In this document: one piece after another, positions 25,362 to 34,475 of the stretch
How the letters are laid out: each line of letters opens with the position of its first letter
Numbering within the stretch: position 1 is the first letter of the stretch
Assembly: GCA_018335585.1 (NCBI GenBank)
Contig: JAGXRZ010000051.1
Span: 1-45,420, forward strand
Direction of reading: 5' to 3'
DNA length: 45,420 nt
Origin: Selenomonadales bacterium
GTDB lineage: Bacteria; Bacillota; UBA994
The notes under the pieces: model-generated
What the model saw: only the letters and a program-made list of their open reading frames with translations
Told to the model about the DNA's origin: nothing
The model's database searches: none
Made by a program: the position numbers and the translations under genes

Positions 25362-26309
25362 TCAACTAGATAGAACAGGAGCCTCAGCCAGTGCACGCTG
25401 CAACATTCCGAACAGCGCGCTCCCGGACATGGTTTCTAGGTTAAGCTCGTCATTGCCTGTGGCCTCCATGTAGAGCAGGTTATGCATCCCGCAGAAGACT
25501 ACGTTACATTCTGCGTGCACTACTTCCCTCGGCGGATTGACATGCCCGTAACTTACGCTAAACACGTACTCAGGCAGAAGAAAGTTAGTCGCAAGCTCCA
25601 AGGATTCGCCCTGCAGAAAGAATAGTTCTCCCTCTCGCCGCACCATGCGTTTGCCGAGCAGTTCATCAAGAGCCGCAACGGGTAGCTCTGCACCAAGCAG
25701 GGACGGCTCTACTAAGTCCTGTAAGTTGCGCGCTAAGGCCATATACCCTTGTGGCTGACTCACGGCGCGCGCCATAATCTCCCCTTTAGTGCAGCCAAGT
25801 TCGTTAGGTTCCCCTGCCAGTATTTTTAGTGCGCGAACCCGGGTCAGGTCGACTAAGGCCAAAAATGCGCGTGCGCCCATCAGAGATAGCTTTGCAGCAA
25901 ACTCCACGTTCACTAACCTACTGCTTCCGGTGAATTCCTCTAGCGCGTACAACGCGTCGGCGGTGCTCGGCGGCATGGCGATGTCAAAAGTACTAGGCCC
26001 GCTGTCGACAGAGCAGGCTAGGTTGTTGTGGAAATAGGTTACCTTGTCAACCTGCGACATGGCGCCTAGAATGCGAATGCGTGAATATGACCGAGCCTCC
26101 TTCAACACGTTAAGCACAGCTGCTGCTTCGCCCGTTATAGTTCCGTCGGCCGAAATGATTCCTTGCGCCTTAAGCTCATCAATTACGCTCTCGTCAACCT
26201 CTTGCGCCTCCCCTTCTCGCACAGCTAGGGGAGAGATTGGGCTAACTTGGTCAAACGCTTGCGACAACCACCGGAAGCCGCCCGGAGAAATGCTATACTT
26301 TGTTGGCAT
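25362..26309 (-). CDS. Hypothetical protein, last gene of the rSAM/FVTNSSS operon
   Basis: Protein of 315 residues that I do not recognise. It begins MPTKYSISPGGFRWL and has no signal peptide or membrane helix. A winged-helix-like pattern occurs early (VIDELKAQGIISADGTITGEAAAVL, about 45-69), followed by alternating beta and helical segments and a C-terminal domain with a YVFSVSYGHVNPPREVVHAECNV strand pair. The overall two-lobed layout vaguely recalls EspG-like chaperones of type VII secretion, a speculative comparison. The ATG is preceded by GGAGG eight bases upstream and follows the stop of the FVTNSSS gene by four bases, so the two are surely co-transcribed. Confidence 0.7.
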   Translation of the reverse strand: MPTKYSISPGGFRWLSQAFDQVSPISPLAVREGEAQEVDESVIDELKAQGIISADGTITGEAAAVLNVLKEARSYSRIRILGAMSQVDKVTYFHNNLACSVDSGPSTFDIAMPPSTADALYALEEFTGSSRLVNVEFAAKLSLMGARAFLALVDLTRVRALKILAGEPNELGCTKGEIMARAVSQPQGYMALARNLQDLVEPSLLGAELPVAALDELLGKRMVRREGELFFLQGESLELATNFLLPEYVFSVSYGHVNPPREVVHAECNVVFCGMHNLLYMEATGNDELNLETMSGSALFGMLQRALAEAPVLSS

Positions 26310-26313
26310 GAAT

Positions 26314-27825
26314 TTAGCCTCCTTCCTTATCGACAAACCCTAGAGGGGTACCTGTGGCATCAACAAGAGCACCTTTAACCATGTCCTTTCCTTTAGACCA
26401 GATAAACTCCCGCCCGCCAGTTTTTAAGAGCCCTTTAGACAGCGGGTTGTTATTTAGAATCTGCGACACCGACATGTCGCCCACATCGACGCTAGTACCT
26501 TTGGGCATAGGTATGCGACTGGTAAGCGCTGCCGGGGCTTTCTTAATTGCTGTCTCTAGCCCATGCTCTGTTACTGCATCTAGTGCCCCTTTGCCGACGC
26601 CTTTAACCGCGCCCTCTAAGACGCCCTCCCCTTTGATGCTCGCGTCAAGGCCGCCCTGAGCCGCTTCGTTGGCCATGCCCGCTAGCGCACTCTTCATTTT
26701 AGATGTCAGGCGCCCATCCTGAAACCTGTCTTTAGCCACCTCGGTTACCGCACCGATAATGCCTTTGGCAATGTGCTTGCCTGCATTTTTGGGGTCTGCC
26801 ATGCCTTCACCGAGACCCCCGGCTACGCCCTTGCCCGCCGTGTAGGCAAGCTTTATCTGTTTCCCTGCCGGGCCCGTAATGTGCGAAAGGGCATCAATGG
26901 CTACATCCGCGCCAAACTGCACGCCTTCTGCGGCCTTAGTCGCCAAATCCCAGCGGTTAGCAGACTTCATTGCTTGTGCAAGTTCAGCCTCGGCCTTAGC
27001 AATCTTAGCCGCGATTTCAGCGCGACGGCCTGCGTTAGCATAAATCATGGCCTTCTCTGCGTCGGCCTTTTGCTTGGCTAAGTCCTTCACCATTTTGTCA
27101 AAAGCCGCACCGGGGCCTACGCTACCCCTGTCGCGCGCTGTGTACTCAATGAGTGCGTCATTCTCGGCAAGTGTTGTCGTCAGTCGCTTTTCGTTCTCGT
27201 CAAGCTGCTTAAGCCGCCGCTCAATCTCTGCTACGTTGTATCCGGCAGACCCATACCCCTTTTGCGTAGCTATGAGAAGGGCCTTCTCTTCTTTGACGGC
27301 GATGAGATCTACCTGTCGTTGTCGCATCCACTCGCCCTTCGCCTCTATTGCTGCCTTCTCCTCGGCCTTTTGCACCTGAACGAGGTGCTTTTCATAATCC
27401 TTTTGCTTAAGAGAGTCCTGCAAATGCTTTATGTACGCTTCATACTGCTGCTTAAGCTTGTCGTAACCTGGGTCTGTTTTGTCGGCAGTCTTGTCTGACT
27501 CTGCCCACAGCTGGGAGTATTCGTCAATTTCCTTTTGAATTTGTGCAGCTTCGCTGTCGATGGTTTTCTCCGCCTCGCTGTATCCCTCCATTACCGCCGC
27601 TTCCTGAAAATCTGCTTCTGACTCCGCGCCTGCGGCAATTTCTTGCGCCATGGACTGTGCGTCACTTAAAGCCGACCCTTGCAGGCTGCCGGAAAGCATA
27701 CCCTTAGCCGCCTCAATCAGCACTAACAGCCCGCCTGCACTAACCACTGAGGCGACCGTGTCGATAGCTACAATCCCAAAACTTTCGCTCGATGAGTTAG
27801 TGACAAAATCAATTTTGACCTTCAT
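26314..27825 (-). CDS. FVTNSSS-motif coiled-coil protein
   Basis: Protein of 503 residues beginning MKVKIDFVTNSSSESFG. This N-terminal signature (F-V/I-T/S-N-S-S-S-x-S-F) recurs at the start of otherwise unrelated proteins of Firmicutes and phages; its function is unknown to me. A hydrophobic stretch follows (about 20-42). Residues of roughly 70-290 are a long charged coiled coil rich in Ala, Glu, Lys and Gln. Then comes a Gly/Ala-rich segment (GKGVAGGLGEGMADPKNAGK, KGIIGAV, GAVKGVGKGAL) like the pre-toxin or pore-like parts of polymorphic toxins. The tail is about 90 residues. It has GGGGGA before the ATG and follows the radical SAM gene by 12 bp. It may be the substrate of that enzyme (inference). 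Confidence 0.75.
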   Translation of the reverse strand: MKVKIDFVTNSSSESFGIVAIDTVASVVSAGGLLVLIEAAKGMLSGSLQGSALSDAQSMAQEIAAGAESEADFQEAAVMEGYSEAEKTIDSEAAQIQKEIDEYSQLWAESDKTADKTDPGYDKLKQQYEAYIKHLQDSLKQKDYEKHLVQVQKAEEKAAIEAKGEWMRQRQVDLIAVKEEKALLIATQKGYGSAGYNVAEIERRLKQLDENEKRLTTTLAENDALIEYTARDRGSVGPGAAFDKMVKDLAKQKADAEKAMIYANAGRRAEIAAKIAKAEAELAQAMKSANRWDLATKAAEGVQFGADVAIDALSHITGPAGKQIKLAYTAGKGVAGGLGEGMADPKNAGKHIAKGIIGAVTEVAKDRFQDGRLTSKMKSALAGMANEAAQGGLDASIKGEGVLEGAVKGVGKGALDAVTEHGLETAIKKAPAALTSRIPMPKGTSVDVGDMSVSQILNNNPLSKGLLKTGGREFIWSKGKDMVKGALVDATGTPLGFVDKEGG

Positions 27826-27837
27826 TCCTATCCCCCT

Positions 27838-28905
27838 TTACAAACCCTGCTGGTCACATAAAGTCACTTCGGGCAAAACTGGGCATCCCCCAAAGCACAT
27901 CTCATAACGCTGGCAGGAGGGACAGCGGCCTACAAACTTGCGGCGAAACCGCATGAACTGCTCCCCGTTCCACGCGTCTTCTAGGCTTCCCCCTCGCAAG
28001 GGCACGGCATAGGCGGGGTCTTGTTCAAAACTACACGGGTAGAGCGAGAGGTCAGGCGAAATGTAGGCTGAGAACCTGCCGGCTTCGCACGGCTCAATTG
28101 ACGCCGGCCAAATCCGCGAGGTATAGCCGAGCAGCCCGGGCACGCTACAGCTGTCAAAGCCTGCTTTGGCGATGTACTCATTGTCGTCAAACAAGGAAAA
28201 GAACTCCTTGACGCGAGAATCGTCGTTCCTCAGCACGTTTGCCTTGCTGCCCCTGCCCACCGGCTTATGGAGCAGAAAGATGATGCGGTTGATCCCTGCA
28301 GGGAATTTATGGTATCGCATGCGCTCGATGGCCTCATCAATCGTGGCGTTGCTTAGGCAGTAGTGGATGTTAGTCTTTATGCCTGCCGCGAGAAGCATCT
28401 CAATTGCACCTAGGGTGTAAGAGCTGCGGTACCAACTTACGGCTACCGCCCCGCAGCTAGCTTTAATCGCCGGCATCAGCTCCTGCCGCAAAGCAAATCC
28501 CGAGGTCGTAAAATTGGGCACTACGCCTTGCTTGCGGGCATAGCCGATTATCTCCAGAAAGTCGTCGTGCATGTCTGGGTCCCCGCGTCCGCCAAGCGCC
28601 ACCTGAAAAGTTCGACCGCGGCATTCGTCGATTATGCGCACAAAATCACCTAGCGCCATGTTAGGCTGGCTTTTCTCGTCGCCGCTTTGGTAGCATTCAA
28701 CGCCAGACATCAGGCACCGTCCGCTTTGTCCATGGGCGCACCGCCCCATTATCCCGATGTCCAGGAGCTCAGGAAAACTTGCCTGAAACGGATCCTTACC
28801 TGTGTCATGCCCGCGTTCGTCAATCATGCCAGAGCGCACGCTGACGCCTGTCTCGGGGTTAAATACCGCAACATAACGATGCGTTCGATCGACGACGGTC
28901 ATCAT
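27838..28905 (-). CDS. Radical SAM/SPASM protein with atypical N-terminal Cys motif
   Basis: Protein of 355 residues. The C-terminal SPASM domain is clear: EPCEAGRFSAYISPDLSLYPCSF, then CPSCQRYEMCFGGC (Cys 328, 331, 337, 341) and Cys350. The middle has radical-SAM-barrel features: VALGGRGDPDMHDDFLEII in the place of GGEPLL and VVPNFTTSGFAL. The usual CX3CX2C is absent; instead Cys56, Cys64 and Cys71 lie in GRCAHGQSGRCLMSGVECYQ, spaced CX7CX6C. SPASM enzymes modify peptides or proteins through extra Fe-S clusters, and the neighbour with the FVTNSSS start is a plausible substrate. The ATG shares four bases with the stop of the upstream membrane-protein gene, and no SD is seen, so coupling is likely. 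Confidence 0.8.
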   Translation of the reverse strand: MMTVVDRTHRYVAVFNPETGVSVRSGMIDERGHDTGKDPFQASFPELLDIGIMGRCAHGQSGRCLMSGVECYQSGDEKSQPNMALGDFVRIIDECRGRTFQVALGGRGDPDMHDDFLEIIGYARKQGVVPNFTTSGFALRQELMPAIKASCGAVAVSWYRSSYTLGAIEMLLAAGIKTNIHYCLSNATIDEAIERMRYHKFPAGINRIIFLLHKPVGRGSKANVLRNDDSRVKEFFSLFDDNEYIAKAGFDSCSVPGLLGYTSRIWPASIEPCEAGRFSAYISPDLSLYPCSFEQDPAYAVPLRGGSLEDAWNGEQFMRFRRKFVGRCPSCQRYEMCFGGCPVLPEVTLCDQQGL

Positions 28906-29927
28906 GACGGTTGCTGCGCCCGTCGTATGCGCGGCAACGCAATTGCTCCGACCAAAGCAAGCGCGCCCAAAATGTACCCCCCATACATCAGCCGCATGAC
29001 GATTAACGGGGCATCAAGAAGTAGCCCGCCGACAAAGCCGCTCAGCAAGAGGAAGGTATACTCGTCGCTGTAGCTGAAGGGTCGCTTAAGCACACGGGCG
29101 AGGTCGCTAGCAGCTAACCTGCCGAACTTAAACAGCCAACCTCGCTTACTTTCCCCCAAGATGTAGCTGACGGCAAAAGAAATCACCAGCACTACAAAGT
29201 ACTTGTCAAACTTGTTGCGCGCACCGCCGAAGCGACTGTAACTAGCGAAGTAGTTAGCAACGATTAGCCCGACGCCGCCCCCGGTTAACAAGAGAACCTG
29301 CGCTTGCTCGCCGAGCGCATGGTACGCTTGTTTAACTTCAGGCACAAGCTGGCGAATGGGCTGCAACGCAACTGCTAAGCCGTCGGTTCGTATCTTCTTA
29401 AAAAGGCGAGTCCCAAAAGTGAAAACAATGACCCAGTAGATAGTCTTTGGAATGACGTCGTTGTAAGTAGCAGTGAGAAAAACGATCAACATCACCAGCG
29501 AGCCTAAAGGGTCGGGCAAGGTGTAGGTCTTAAGCGGCCAAAAGATAAAGTTGACGGCGGCAACAATGCCGAGCTTTATCGTCAGCTGCTTGTACATGGA
29601 AGGCAATGTCCTAACCCCTGCCCGGGCCATCTCCTTTAGCCAAGAGAGCAATGTCTCCTGTGCTATAGGTGCACGGCGCAATGATGGCGGCGCGGCAGGC
29701 GCACTCAGCTGCACAGGTTGCGGCAAACGAGGGGTCAATTTACTTATCGCCACGCGAGAATCACCCTTTCTGCATTTGATGAGCGACAACAATGAGCAGT
29801 GCGCCCGCTGACGACGAATGCCTGTGACAACGGCAGTAGCAGTCTCGCCAAAGACTCCTAGTGCCAAGTGGGCGCCTCCATACACGATGAAGGCGATGCC
29901 AAGCAGTGACAGCACTATGCGCCACAT
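28902..29927 (-). CDS. Polytopic membrane protein of the rSAM/FVTNSSS operon
   Basis: Protein of about 341 residues, not recognised. An N-terminal helix (IVLSLLGIAFIVYGGAHLAL) is followed by a basic, cysteine-containing, proline-rich loop. Several more hydrophobic segments follow: KLGIVAAVNFIFWPL, LGSLVMLIVFLTATY, VLLLTGGGVGLIVANYF, FVVLVISFAVSYILG, and a C-terminal pair ending in RIRRAQQPS. I prefer the ATG at 29927, which has GAGGGTG upstream, over one 48 bases earlier that would overlap the preceding gene without an SD. It is translationally coupled to the radical SAM gene. It may anchor or export the operon's products (inference). Confidence 0.72.
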   Translation of the reverse strand: MWRIVLSLLGIAFIVYGGAHLALGVFGETATAVVTGIRRQRAHCSLLSLIKCRKGDSRVAISKLTPRLPQPVQLSAPAAPPSLRRAPIAQETLLSWLKEMARAGVRTLPSMYKQLTIKLGIVAAVNFIFWPLKTYTLPDPLGSLVMLIVFLTATYNDVIPKTIYWVIVFTFGTRLFKKIRTDGLAVALQPIRQLVPEVKQAYHALGEQAQVLLLTGGGVGLIVANYFASYSRFGGARNKFDKYFVVLVISFAVSYILGESKRGWLFKFGRLAASDLARVLKRPFSYSDEYTFLLLSGFVGGLLLDAPLIVMRLMYGGYILGALALVGAIALPRIRRAQQPS

Positions 29928-29952
29928 AAGCACCCTCGCCAACCCTACCCCT

Positions 29953-32265
29953 TTAGTCTGTCTGCTGCCACTCATAAATGTAACGCGTGCCTTGTGTCAC
30001 GCGGGCAGACAGGCTAGTGCGTAGCGCAATTTTATCTCCCGCGGCTTTTCCCGCCGGCACGACGGCAGTGAGTGTTTCACTTACGGAGTACACCTTTACC
30101 GTCTTGTATGTGTCGATGGTGAAGCTCGTCTTGCCGTCTTTGTTGCGGAACCTAATCGCGCCTCCGGTTATATAGCCTATGTCTACGTCCCACTTGTCAA
30201 AGTCGGCGCCTGCAGTGGCCTTATCCGTGAAGTACGAGAGCTTTTGCGAGCCAAAGGAGAGCTTCATGTCTAGCGAGACGACTTCTCCTGCTCGTATAGT
30301 GCTTGGGGGCACACTAAATGTAGCTGTTGAGGTGCTGTTTTCGCCATGCAACACATCAGGGTCGTAGTAGGTATCGGTCTTGCCGAGGTACCTCCACGTA
30401 CAGCTGTAACTGCCCGGAGCGGAGCTGTTGCTAACTTCGTAGACACCGCCTTTGTTAGTCGCACGCACCTGTTCTTGTCCATCGTAATTTACTGTGCCTA
30501 CCAGCACCCAAGCGAAGGTGGGGTCGGCCTTAATCGCTTCTTCAAACATCCCCGTCTCGCGCAGATACGCAAAGAAACCCGCCTTGTCGTTCTTCTCTGA
30601 CTGTGCTATCCAAACGCCGATAGCACGCACTAACCGCACATGGTCAAGTTCTGCCCTTTTGTCGGGGTCGATACAGCTTAGGACTGCGTTGCGGATGGCA
30701 TAGAGCCGCGTCAGCCTAGTTTCTACATCGTAGTTGCTGCCGCGCTTGTCTATGCCGAAGTAGGCTTGATGGGTAAGGTAGGACAAAAGTCCTTGCTTTT
30801 TCATCTCAGCGATGAAAGCCTCTTCACTCTGCCTTAGCTTAGCGATTTCCGGTTCACTAGCCTTGCGTTCCTCAAAATACTGCCTTAGGCCGCTCCACGC
30901 CCCTGTGATGAGCTTTTCTCTGGCGGCGCTGCCTAAGTCGGCCTCATTAATGCCGTACTTCTCGCAGTGCGCCTTGACTATGCGAATGTTCATTAGGGCT
31001 TCGGCATTGCCTTTTAAGGCAAAGATGCTTTGAAAATCGCCTGCCAAACCACTCTCTTGGTCGAGATACATCTTGTAGGCCTCTTCAATCTCGGCTTGCG
31101 TCCAGTACGCCTGCGCCGCATCCGCAGCTTGTTCAATTCCTGCCTTAGCATAGTTTAGTGTCGACACCAGTAGCTGCACTTTTGGCCCGCTTAGACTAGT
31201 CAGCATGCCGGCCACGGCCTCAAAACCAGCCTTAGCATCGCCGCCCGCAAACGCCCCTGCCGCTGTTCCTAGGCCTCCTAAAACAGTGATGGCCTTCGCA
31301 GTTTTATCGATAGCGCCTGTCTGCACGTCCTTTACCGCAAAGAAGGCCTTATTGGCGTTAACGCTCTTCTCTACACTAAACGCTATCGCCTTCGCGTAAA
31401 GTTCCATAGCCTTGTCGTTAAACTCCTGCTCACCCGCGGCTCCTGCTTGCGCCGAGTAGGTCATGCGCACTAGTGTGTCTACCGGTGCAAAGTCCTTTAG
31501 GGGGTTGCCCTGAGCGAGCAGCTCGTCGTAGGCAGCCGACTCTAAGTAAGCAACAGCGTCTTTAACGAGCTGGTCGCGGGCCGACCTGCTGGTTACGCCT
31601 AGCGACTGCAGCAGCTCGTCGAGCTGTCTGCCTACTGCCCCGTTGAGCCTAGCTTTCTTTTGCAGACGGCTGTGTTCAGAGGCGGCGTAAGTAGCAGCAA
31701 AAGTTCTTAGCTGTGCCTCCTCTGAGGGCTTGCCAAAACCTAGCCAGCTAAAGTGACTTGCCCTAAGTACGGCCGTTCCCTCTGCCACATTGACACTGTC
31801 CGGAACTAGGAACCTCCACGCGCCATCCTCATACGTGGCAAAAAACAGCTCTTCCGCCGCCAAGTCCTTTTGCCTAAGCGCGGGGATTTTCACTGTCACT
31901 TGCACGGGCTCGGCAAACCAAATGTCGTGCACGCCCTCGCCCGCCACCTCAAGCGGTGTCCCATAGAAGACGAAATCAGATGTCTGCTTGCTCTTGGTCT
32001 CCTCGGCCGAAAGCACCCGCAGGGTTATACCGGTGCCGCGCTCCATAAGGCCGTCGGGAACGTTAAGCTGCCAACCAGTCTTAGCGGTACTGCCCACTTG
32101 TGTGTCCTGGCCAGTCTGCACCTCGGCTTGGGCTTTTGCCCCTCGGTCATACGGGTCACGTCCGCTACCGAAGGGGCCTGCAAATATGAAAGCTGCCACA
32201 GCTATTACCAGTACACCGGCAACCGCCGGAATCAGTAAGCCCTTAGAAGGCGACGATTTACTCAA
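29953..32265 (-). CDS. Large membrane-anchored extracytoplasmic protein
   Basis: Protein of about 770 residues. A single N-terminal helix (LLIPAVAGVLVIAVAAFIFA, about 10-29) probably anchors it outside the membrane. A beta-rich domain follows (about 60-190, with QLNVPDGLMERGTGITLRVL, EPVQVTVKIPAL, LFFATYEDGAWRFLVPDSV), resembling ZU5-type modules. The middle is a long helical region. The C-terminal 150 residues are beta-rich (TWRYLGKTDTYY and FSVPPSTIRAGEVVSLDMKL). Translation starts at TTG: GGGGAGG lies eight bases upstream, and it overlaps the preceding stop by eight bases. An upstream ATG would overlap by 89 bp and has no such support. The function is unknown. Confidence 0.72.
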   Translation of the reverse strand: MSKSSPSKGLLIPAVAGVLVIAVAAFIFAGPFGSGRDPYDRGAKAQAEVQTGQDTQVGSTAKTGWQLNVPDGLMERGTGITLRVLSAEETKSKQTSDFVFYGTPLEVAGEGVHDIWFAEPVQVTVKIPALRQKDLAAEELFFATYEDGAWRFLVPDSVNVAEGTAVLRASHFSWLGFGKPSEEAQLRTFAATYAASEHSRLQKKARLNGAVGRQLDELLQSLGVTSRSARDQLVKDAVAYLESAAYDELLAQGNPLKDFAPVDTLVRMTYSAQAGAAGEQEFNDKAMELYAKAIAFSVEKSVNANKAFFAVKDVQTGAIDKTAKAITVLGGLGTAAGAFAGGDAKAGFEAVAGMLTSLSGPKVQLLVSTLNYAKAGIEQAADAAQAYWTQAEIEEAYKMYLDQESGLAGDFQSIFALKGNAEALMNIRIVKAHCEKYGINEADLGSAAREKLITGAWSGLRQYFEERKASEPEIAKLRQSEEAFIAEMKKQGLLSYLTHQAYFGIDKRGSNYDVETRLTRLYAIRNAVLSCIDPDKRAELDHVRLVRAIGVWIAQSEKNDKAGFFAYLRETGMFEEAIKADPTFAWVLVGTVNYDGQEQVRATNKGGVYEVSNSSAPGSYSCTWRYLGKTDTYYDPDVLHGENSTSTATFSVPPSTIRAGEVVSLDMKLSFGSQKLSYFTDKATAGADFDKWDVDIGYITGGAIRFRNKDGKTSFTIDTYKTVKVYSVSETLTAVVPAGKAAGDKIALRTSLSARVTQGTRYIYEWQQTD

Positions 32266-32746
32266 GGCGTATTCCTCCCCTGCTGGGTGTAATCCCGGTT
32301 TCGTAGCGGAACTTGCGTGAAACCGCTTCAAACTCGACTTCGTCAAGCGACTTACAAAGCAGCGTAATTGAGTGCTGCTCGTTGTCTGTGCCGTACTTCA
32401 TTAGAATAGACTCCTGTCCCATTTCTACCGCTAGGAGGCGAACTGCGCCTTGGTTAAACACGATAACGGTTGAATCAAGTAAGATGCCAAAGCCGGAAAC
32501 AAAAACTTCAATGCTGCCGGAAGCTAGGTGAGCCTCACTACTTTCTGACCGCTTAATGACCGCAGGCTGTATGTGCATGATCTGGTTTTCGATTATTAAT
32601 GCTGCGGCTTTGACGCGGCCAAATTCCCGCACTGCCAAGAGAGCTGCAGAGAAGGCCACACCGAGAGTCACAAGCAAGAAATACCATACGTGCCCTCCGC
32701 CATGCACTAACAACCCAAACGAGGCTAGCACGAAAGCGACACACAA
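32258..32746 (-). CDS. Membrane protein with bPH-like domain, first gene of operon
   Basis: Protein of about 162 residues. Two hydrophobic segments (VAFVLASFGLLVHG and VWYFLLVTLGVAFSAALLAV) are followed by a soluble domain of about 100 residues (AAALIIENQIMHIQPAVIKR, then FGILLDSTVIVFNQGAVRLLAVEM) that looks like a bacterial PH-type barrel. The start is uncertain: the TTG at 32746 cuts the first helix short. The open frame runs further upstream through CQLIALKRRLLAFTG, a natural cytoplasmic lead, but without an obvious ATG, GTG or TTG. The next gene overlaps its end by eight bases. Confidence 0.6.
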   Translation of the reverse strand: MCVAFVLASFGLLVHGGGHVWYFLLVTLGVAFSAALLAVREFGRVKAAALIIENQIMHIQPAVIKRSESSEAHLASGSIEVFVSGFGILLDSTVIVFNQGAVRLLAVEMGQESILMKYGTDNEQHSITLLCKSLDEVEFEAVSRKFRYETGITPSRGGIRLE

Positions 32747-32947: not shown

Positions 32948-34369
32948 CTATTTAGGCGACGATTTCGCCTCGATAAAGTTGCTCATTAACTCTGCCCGAC
33001 TCTGCACGCCAATCTTTGAGTAGATGTTCTTAACATGAGTCTTCACGGTGTTTTCGCTTACATGCAGTTCCCCCGCGATCATGCGATAGGTGCTGCCTTT
33101 AACTAGCAGCGCGGCTATTTCACCCTCGCGCTCCGTCAACATACCCCACACCCTCGATTGTGCTATCGTGCGGTCTTGCTCTCCTGCTGGCAGTGCGGTA
33201 AACGCCGCTAAGAAAGCGTGGCTTTTTAGCAGGGCGTCAAGGCGATTGTGCAGCGGAGGCAAAAGAACTAATGCCAAACAGACAATACTCAGTGCCAAGA
33301 GGGTTGGGTTCTGGCTCTGTATACCACCGCCAAAAATATGCTCGCCCAGTAGTCCCCCGAGCAGTACACCTAGGACATTCGCCGCAAGTCCAGCCCCCAT
33401 TATTCTAGCGGGGTTCTTGCCTAAGTCGAGCATCTCCCCTAAGGTCGTGCCCCAAAACAAGTCGAGCATACCGCAGGCGCCAAGCATCAACGTGTCAACC
33501 ACAAGGTAGTCTAGCCACGAGCGGCCAAGCAACAAAAAGAAGATAAACGAAAACCCAATCATAGCAATGGCTACGTAAAGACTGTAAGCGCGGTTCTGAT
33601 TGCGCCGCAAGTTCCGTAAGACCAGCAAAGCCACGATGTAAGGCACGGCCCAGTACCAACTCGTCAGCCACTCCAGGTGGGCAAAGCTAGGCCTTTGTAC
33701 GTGGTACATCAAACCAGAGTTAATCGTAATAACCAGTATGAACAGGCAAAGAAAGGTCAGCGGGCCAAGCGTGCTGTTATGTAAGCGGTCGGATTCGGCC
33801 GAGCTATGCTTTACCTGCAAATCACCACTCGGAATCGGAAGCAAACGTGCAAAAAGAAATGCAGCGACAAGAGACAGTATTGCCAAGCTAAGCCCAAAGT
33901 GCGGCGACAAATGAACCGCGCTCAAATTGAGCAGAATCATCAGGATGTTGGCAGAAATAAGTGCATCTGCCATGGTTACTAGGCGCTCTTCCTTAGGCGT
34001 GTCGTGCTTAAAGTAGAAGCCCCATGCGGCAACGCTAACGCCAATCATGAACGCTGCCGACAGCAAGGCTATAGTCCAAAAAGGCGAGGGCGGGAAGAAG
34101 AACGCACCCGAAGCCAAGCCACTAAAGGCAAAAGCAAAGAGCAGGAGCTGTTTCGCGGCGCCTATGTTCGTCACCATGAAGCCCGCGGTTAGTAGTCCCG
34201 CAAAGTGGGCGGCCATAGCCCCAAACACGAGGTGATTTGTCGCCAGGCCATGGTAGCTCGTAAGGGCGTAAAGTATCTGTCCTTCAAAAGGGAAGGCCAG
34301 AAGCCAGGCAAAAGACAAAGCAAACACGATGACGGATAGCCGGCGCGAGCTAAATCCTATTTGCTCCAT
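32948..34369 (-). CDS. Membrane-bound LuxR-family transcriptional regulator
   Basis: Protein of about 473 residues. The first 400 contain ten to twelve hydrophobic helices with a transporter-like layout (VIVFALSFAWLLAFPFEGQIL, HLVFGAMAAHFAGLLTAGFMV, and more). The last 65 residues are a LuxR/GerE helix-turn-helix: LTEREGEIAALLVKGSTYRMIAGELHVSENTVKTHVKNIYSKIGV. Such many-helix LuxR proteins are frequent in gut Actinobacteria and Clostridia and presumably sense a membrane or extracellular signal; known ligands are few. The ATG at 34369 lies behind GGGAGGGGGG. Its neighbours suggest it may control the operon downstream on the same strand (inference). Confidence 0.85.
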   Translation of the reverse strand: MEQIGFSSRRLSVIVFALSFAWLLAFPFEGQILYALTSYHGLATNHLVFGAMAAHFAGLLTAGFMVTNIGAAKQLLLFAFAFSGLASGAFFFPPSPFWTIALLSAAFMIGVSVAAWGFYFKHDTPKEERLVTMADALISANILMILLNLSAVHLSPHFGLSLAILSLVAAFLFARLLPIPSGDLQVKHSSAESDRLHNSTLGPLTFLCLFILVITINSGLMYHVQRPSFAHLEWLTSWYWAVPYIVALLVLRNLRRNQNRAYSLYVAIAMIGFSFIFFLLLGRSWLDYLVVDTLMLGACGMLDLFWGTTLGEMLDLGKNPARIMGAGLAANVLGVLLGGLLGEHIFGGGIQSQNPTLLALSIVCLALVLLPPLHNRLDALLKSHAFLAAFTALPAGEQDRTIAQSRVWGMLTEREGEIAALLVKGSTYRMIAGELHVSENTVKTHVKNIYSKIGVQSRAELMSNFIEAKSSPK

Positions 34370-34475
34370 CCCGTTACCCCCCCTCCCATGTCGCCGCAAT
34401 CAACGCTGTCGCCATTAAGCACATTCTAACATATCGTGCCAGACATTACGCTGAGGACAAGGCAAAAAAATTCTG

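Follow-up and report, generated by a model that had tools for sequence, protein, structure and literature searches.

A radical SAM/SPASM enzyme family paired with proteins that carry a conserved N-terminal FVTNSSS tag in bacteria and phages

Radical S-adenosylmethionine (SAM) enzymes of the SPASM type for which a peptide or protein partner is known are usually dedicated to a single short peptide or a single protein family. In several bacterial phyla and numerous phages, among them coliphages that can be propagated on laboratory E. coli, the enzyme family described here tracks a short N-terminal tag whose carriers are otherwise unrelated proteins. It was found in a contig of a Selenomonadales bacterium (assembly GCA_018335585.1, contig JAGXRZ010000051.1, positions 1 to 45,420), and this whole stretch of 45,420 nucleotides is called the window below. 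The enzyme and its tagged partner are encoded by genes D and E of a six-gene operon (genes A-F) on the minus strand at 25362-32746. The enzyme and the tagged proteins are an obligate pair across many bacteria and phages, and the pairing suggests an undescribed protein modification that is used in the conflict between bacteria and phages, among other places.

The anaerobic sulfatase-maturating enzyme (anSME) is comparable in that this SPASM radical SAM enzyme has its target in a short motif within a large folded protein, and its eight auxiliary cysteines follow an order similar to that in gene D. In contrast to the anSME/sulfatase system, no sulfatase was detected in the cassette with Pfam, the motif FVTNSSSESF is strictly N-terminal and does not contain C/S-x-P-x-R, and the putative substrates are many and unrelated. 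The radical SAM maturases of ribosomally synthesised and post-translationally modified peptides (RiPPs), such as SkfB, SuiB, PqqE, MftC and WgkB, share the domain layout of gene D, are its closest sequence relatives and are likewise encoded beside the presumed substrate. However, the partners of the present family are 66-882 amino acids (aa) long with folded or repeat bodies and are not short leader-core precursor peptides. A cognate transporter, a protease or a RiPP recognition element domain was not matched by Pfam or NCBIfam in the six genes, and the relatives were not exhaustively checked. Prokaryotic viperin differs as well: the NCBIfam viperin model gave 11.7 vs 180 bits with gene D, which has a SPASM domain, and the PADLOC anti-phage defence models resulted, for the six genes, only in weak viperin matches of gene D (6e-5).

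In the PHROG library, phrog_7293 corresponds by match to the enzyme and phrog_7397 to a tagged protein; both are listed as being of unknown function and are not linked with each other. FVTNSSS or its variants were not printed in any relevant paper of the open-access literature, which excludes subscription papers and preprints, and none of these papers links the genes. SPASM enzymes that have a cognate protein as their substrate are known in kind; what would be new is that the substrates have a portable N-terminal tag in common.

Co-occurrence and features of the enzyme

Enzyme loci, 80 bacterial and 19 viral, were fetched with the enzyme profile A1 without the use of the motif. An open reading frame (ORF) starting with the motif was detected in 90 of the 99 loci, mostly <=150 bp away from the enzyme gene. 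This is a corrected count, from which four lenient matches in T4-like phages were removed and to which four loci were added in which H takes the place of F at residue 7 (L034, L035, L036 and L063). The nine loci without a motif ORF comprised five T4-like phages, three contigs ending at or within the enzyme gene (L060, L062, L070), and one locus in which an in-frame TAA replaces the first motif Ser directly behind an intact enzyme gene (MKVRKGFVTN*SSTNFG, L045:9103-9160). The latter may result from an assembly error, a pseudogene or recoding. In L098 the tagged partner was encoded on the opposite strand.

The two partners were also searched separately in whole genomes. The window's phylum was represented by 398 genomes, nine of which (G000, G029, G119, G145, G161, G185, G197, G291, G344) were matched by the enzyme profile at E <= 1e-30. 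At the DNA level, a degenerate pattern of the tag matched the identical nine and 0 of the other 389, and the reversed control pattern gave 0 matches. The random-draw p of two identical 9/398 sets is ~1.6e-18 with phylogeny ignored; the nine genomes belong to seven families. In 385 genomes from the class of a Rhizobium locus, the enzyme search and the tag search each matched G451 and G706 only. Two of the 11 positive genomes overall were query centres. A first scan of genome contigs with a single protein query had given no match. Among 50 viral contigs with a length of >=30 kb that were picked by the motif alone, the enzyme was found in 34, including 15 of the 17 longer than 140 kb.

A chance neighbourhood of unrelated genes would fit the patchy distribution of the pair, which was missing in three same-genus genomes. 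It is contradicted by the co-occurrence tests, as genomes with one partner only amounted to 0/783, and such an explanation is hardly credible. The first-pass annotation, made from the DNA of the window, had assigned the enzyme and the FVTNSSS protein to one system and had named an enzyme family occurring mostly without a nearby FVTNSSS gene as the finding that would speak against it. The search resulted in the opposite, both in the 90 loci and in the identical genome sets.

The radical SAM/SPASM assignment of gene D, also proposed in that annotation, was confirmed by a Pfam SPASM match above the cut-off (1.2e-5), with a Radical_SAM match below it (0.0017); NCBIfam rSAM_more_4Fe4S was matched above its cut-off. 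The named NCBIfam equivalogs were all far below theirs, the best being MftC with 52.6 vs 265 bits. The nearest solved relatives by sequence, SkfB, SuiB, PqqE, BtrN and anSME (4k36/4k37), are mostly peptide- or protein-modifying enzymes. The cluster motif of radical SAM enzymes, which binds the [4Fe-4S] cluster and SAM, usually reads CX3CX2C. The three aligned cluster cysteines had this spacing in other clades, CX7CX2C in T4-like phages, and the unusual CX7CX6C in the window's clade and most Bacillota relatives. The conservation of the SPASM cysteines (Table 1) was determined from alignment A2 with 37 enzyme members.

The enzyme tree consists of four clades, and tagged partners were found in all of them. 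Among the members are Bacillota, Pseudomonadota, Thermodesulfobacteriota, Campylobacterota, Spirochaetota, Bacteroidota and phages. In Cronobacter phage leB the annotation divides the enzyme into two neighbouring ORFs, which gives the impression of a split or frameshifted gene (L006:4923-6253), and the C-terminus of a related phage copy (L123) breaks off after ~330 residues.

The N-terminal tag and its proposed modification

Gene E begins MKVKIDFVTNSSSESFG. The consensus of the tag was MK[IV][KR]x[DG][FYH][VI][TS]NSSSxS[FY], or MKIRxDFVTNSSSxSF in the short form. The tag was strictly N-terminal, with N always being residue 10. In 132 unique N-termini, N10 and S12 were present in 132/132, S11 in 131 and S13 in 130, counts that are partly built in, as the collecting regular expression demanded N at position 10 and small residues at 11-13. 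Residue 7 was left free in this expression and was nevertheless F, Y or H throughout, a position called aromatic here. K2 was near-constant, and the remaining positions were restricted to I/V/T/L/Y/F (3), R/K (4), D/G (6), V/I (8), T/S (9), mostly S (15) and F/Y (16). The column identity of residues 1-16 compared with the rest of the protein was 0.77 vs 0.34 in alignment A3 (20 gene E homologues, whole proteins) and 0.83 vs 0.29 in A5. No family for the tag was found in Pfam, NCBIfam or PADLOC. N-glycosylation at the N-S-S sequon was considered and rejected, with no glycosyltransferase family matched among the six genes.

The bodies behind the tag were unrelated. They included an LRR_5 protein (L043), a BRCT protein (L042), the coiled-coil and Gly-rich family of 470-530 aa to which the window's protein belongs, and small alpha/beta proteins; LRR_5 and BRCT were the only domains found among the scanned tagged proteins with Pfam, NCBIfam and PADLOC. 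The length ranged from 66 to 882 aa, the longest being the leucine-rich repeat (LRR) protein. In the AlphaFold2 model of gene E, the mean predicted local distance difference test (pLDDT) value was 61, with confident helices at ~70-280 and low values at residues 1-67. A small tagged protein was modelled with a mean pLDDT of 86, and its residues 1-10 were disordered before a confident alpha/beta body. A fold search with this small body gave no match at E <= 0.001 in the PDB or in viral structures.

Genes D and E are probably the enzyme and the substrate of a widespread and apparently undescribed protein-modification system, in which the tag is recognised and a residue within it is modified. Since the bodies are unrelated and conservation is highest in the tag, even though it is predicted to be disordered, the tag is most likely the substrate or docking site of the enzyme. 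It is plausible that the enzyme targets the Ser-rich motif itself, as proposed in the first-pass annotation, because this motif is the sole feature common to the unrelated partners and lies in a predicted floppy tail.

In the proposed mechanism, the enzyme would recognise the flexible tag MK[IV][KR]x[DG][FYH][VI][TS]NSSS of its partners. The reduction of SAM would yield a 5'-deoxyadenosyl radical, which would abstract a hydrogen from a tag residue. The modified residue would most likely be located between the aromatic residue 7 and Ser-13, position 7 and N10-S13 being the natural candidates. The candidate chemistries are an aromatic-to-side-chain crosslink and a Ser oxidation as in anSME. The tag would thereby be a portable handle, the modified form of which is needed by the attached protein. 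One enzyme family could serve unrelated bodies, and many tagged proteins would be possible per genome. In the window, the tag would be held at the cytosolic membrane face beside the conserved membrane partner C, as a transmembrane (TM)-like helix lies right behind the tag in gene E. A modification of the tag, if it takes place, would be new among post-translational modifications and could be studied in experimental systems that already exist.

The tag might also be a docking signal only, with residues further down being modified according to the leader-core logic of RiPPs. The strict N-terminal position, with N at residue 10, and the occurrence of one tag on very different bodies suit a recognition element. 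In contrast, a second conserved site common to the bodies was not seen, the rest of the sequence varying freely from the 66-aa protein to the 882-aa LRR protein, and a near-invariant NSSS is unusual in a docking peptide. Docking without modification of the tag is regarded as unlikely.

Genomic contexts in bacteria and phages

In one enzyme clade, ~30 loci from several phyla, some of them on conjugative plasmids, had a four-gene operon consisting of a SMEK-domain Avs2-like STAND NTPase, a gene of 120-135 aa, a 132-aa tagged protein (FVSNSSS) and the enzyme. L003, L004, L005, L068, L074, L077, L082, L084 and ~20 more belong to this group; L068 and L084 are of the Rhizobium/Xanthobacter type. The operon is a candidate defence system. 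In contrast to these loci, the SMEK/Avs2-like NTPase was not present in the window's operon. The E. coli genomes gave no match to the Vibrio operon. A radical SAM partner of SMEK/Avs2-like NTPases was not described in the literature searched, and SMEK and radical SAM are both unmentioned in the DefensePredictor paper (PMC13092281).

In other Bacillota, a lone small tagged protein accompanied the enzyme. Deltaproteobacterial metagenome-assembled genomes (L090, L094, L097, L098, L104) contained 2-4 tandem tagged paralogues near one enzyme gene; one copy in L098 reads FVTNCSTTTF. On large phage contigs (L108, L115, L116, L118), clusters of 4-8 different tagged proteins per enzyme were detected. 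T4-like phages had two tagged proteins, the genes of which lie ~20 kb from the enzyme gene; gp113 and gp118 of Klebsiella phage Matisse both start with MKIRSGFVSNSSSSSF, and their homologues in coliphage Lw1 are gp111 and gp116. In 50,697 phage records, the enzyme was found in 172 and the two tagged proteins in 174 and 175, all from a single phage group, and the cases are not independent. A TOTE-type primase-helicase was encoded just upstream of the pair in L047 (PF22548, 2.9e-70) and L051; this neighbour was confined to a few loci and was given no weight.

These contexts bear on the possibility that the tagged proteins are carriers or co-factors of the enzyme, comparable to PqqD for PqqE, and that the true substrate is another molecule. 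The obligate pairing and the adjacency of the genes fit this explanation too. However, the several different tagged proteins per phage enzyme and the tandem copies in L094, L097 and L104 look like substrates, and the clades did not show any further conserved peptide gene. The carrier role is considered quite improbable.

A role of the enzyme-substrate pair in intercellular or phage conflict is inferred. In a wider and more tentative proposal, which we consider rather less than evenly probable, a portable N-terminal tag would receive a new chemical group or crosslink from a single family of radical SAM enzymes. Bacteria would tag immune (SMEK/Avs2-like) and other components, phages would tag several of their own proteins, and a general, so far undescribed tag-and-activate modification of proteins would be common to hosts and viruses. 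The pairing is a possible lead to the function of many anonymous phage proteins and of the SMEK/Avs2-like candidate defence operon.

Several points weigh against modification of the tag by the enzyme and against the conflict role. The same data are compatible with a tag that serves for docking and is not itself modified, and the N10-S13 counts are partly built in, as stated above. In about one third of the motif-bearing viral contigs the enzyme was not seen, these being fragments or cases with a host-supplied enzyme. The conflict role is drawn from neighbours in other clades, none of which is located in the window.

The operon in the window

All six ORFs of the operon were present in the close packing described in the first-pass annotation, with gaps between successive ORFs, as listed, of -89, -23, -4, +12 and -23 bp. 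The overlap of -89 bp becomes smaller with the TTG start of gene B, which yields 770 aa. The coordinates of the genes and of the features within them are presented in Table 1.

Table 1. Features of the operon and of its enzyme-tag pair in the window; TM segments were assigned by hydropathy
Feature	Positions	Strand	Description
Gene A	32258..32746	-	Small membrane protein, 162 aa, TM-like segments; lineage-specific
Gene B	29953..32346	-	Lineage-specific anchored protein with a single N-terminal TM; 797 aa in the ORF list, 770 aa being probable
Gene C	28902..29975	-	Polytopic membrane protein, 357 aa; kept beside the pair in the long-substrate Bacillota sub-clade
Gene D	27838..28905	-	Conserved enzyme partner in the pair, radical SAM/SPASM type, 355 aa
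[4Fe-4S]/SAM motif	28693..28740	-	C56-x7-C64-x6-C71-Y (alignments A1 and A2); spacing wider than in the CX3CX2C of distant members, with which the motif aligns
SPASM region	27856..28149	-	Eight Cys (C253, C273, C291, C328, C331, C337, C341, C350) in invariant or near-invariant columns of A2
Gene E	26314..27825	-	Tagged protein and putative substrate, 503 aa; the tag is followed by a TM-like helix (18-36), a coiled coil and a C-terminal region rich in Gly
Tag of gene E	27778..27825	-	MKVKIDFVTNSSSESF, residues 1-16; NSSS codons 27787-27798
Gene F	25362..26336	-	Accessory soluble protein; 324 aa in the ORF list, but a start at the ATG at 26309 (315 aa) is likely

The membrane types proposed earlier for genes B and C agreed with the hydropathy profiles. 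The description of gene A as bPH-like obtained no support from Pfam or NCBIfam, which gave no family for this gene, and its relatives were not found in related loci with tblastn. Relatives of gene B were likewise not detected with tblastn in the related loci, nor in 16 other genomes, eight of which have the pair. Gene C had no Pfam match; its tblastn relatives adjoin the pair in 23 loci. Relatives of gene F were found with tblastn after gene E in a subset of loci (L031, L037, L039, L040, L053, L063, L066, L083).

The six genes had been interpreted as one maturation and export or envelope-display system. This fits the close packing, the conservation of gene C beside D and E in the 23 loci, and the TM-like or signal-like segment behind the tag in the long forms. 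Some members of the window's sub-clade also have a lipobox-like or signal-peptidase-like site behind the tag, the signal-peptidase sites being read by eye. However, genes A and B are not conserved, and the conserved unit consists of C-D-E, sometimes with F, and is limited to one Bacillota sub-clade. The hydrophobic segment after the tag, which is found in the window's sub-clade, was missing in 113/131 tagged proteins, and no transporter or protease was found in the cassette. Most tagged proteins outside the window's sub-clade are apparently cytosolic and have other gene partners. A six-gene export or display system is very unlikely, and the earlier interpretation as a whole is partly supported.

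A polytopic protein that resembles the major facilitator superfamily and carries a LuxR-type helix-turn-helix is encoded at 32948-34399 (-), upstream of the operon and in the same orientation. Conservation of this gene beside the pair was not seen; its product is a possible regulator of the operon.

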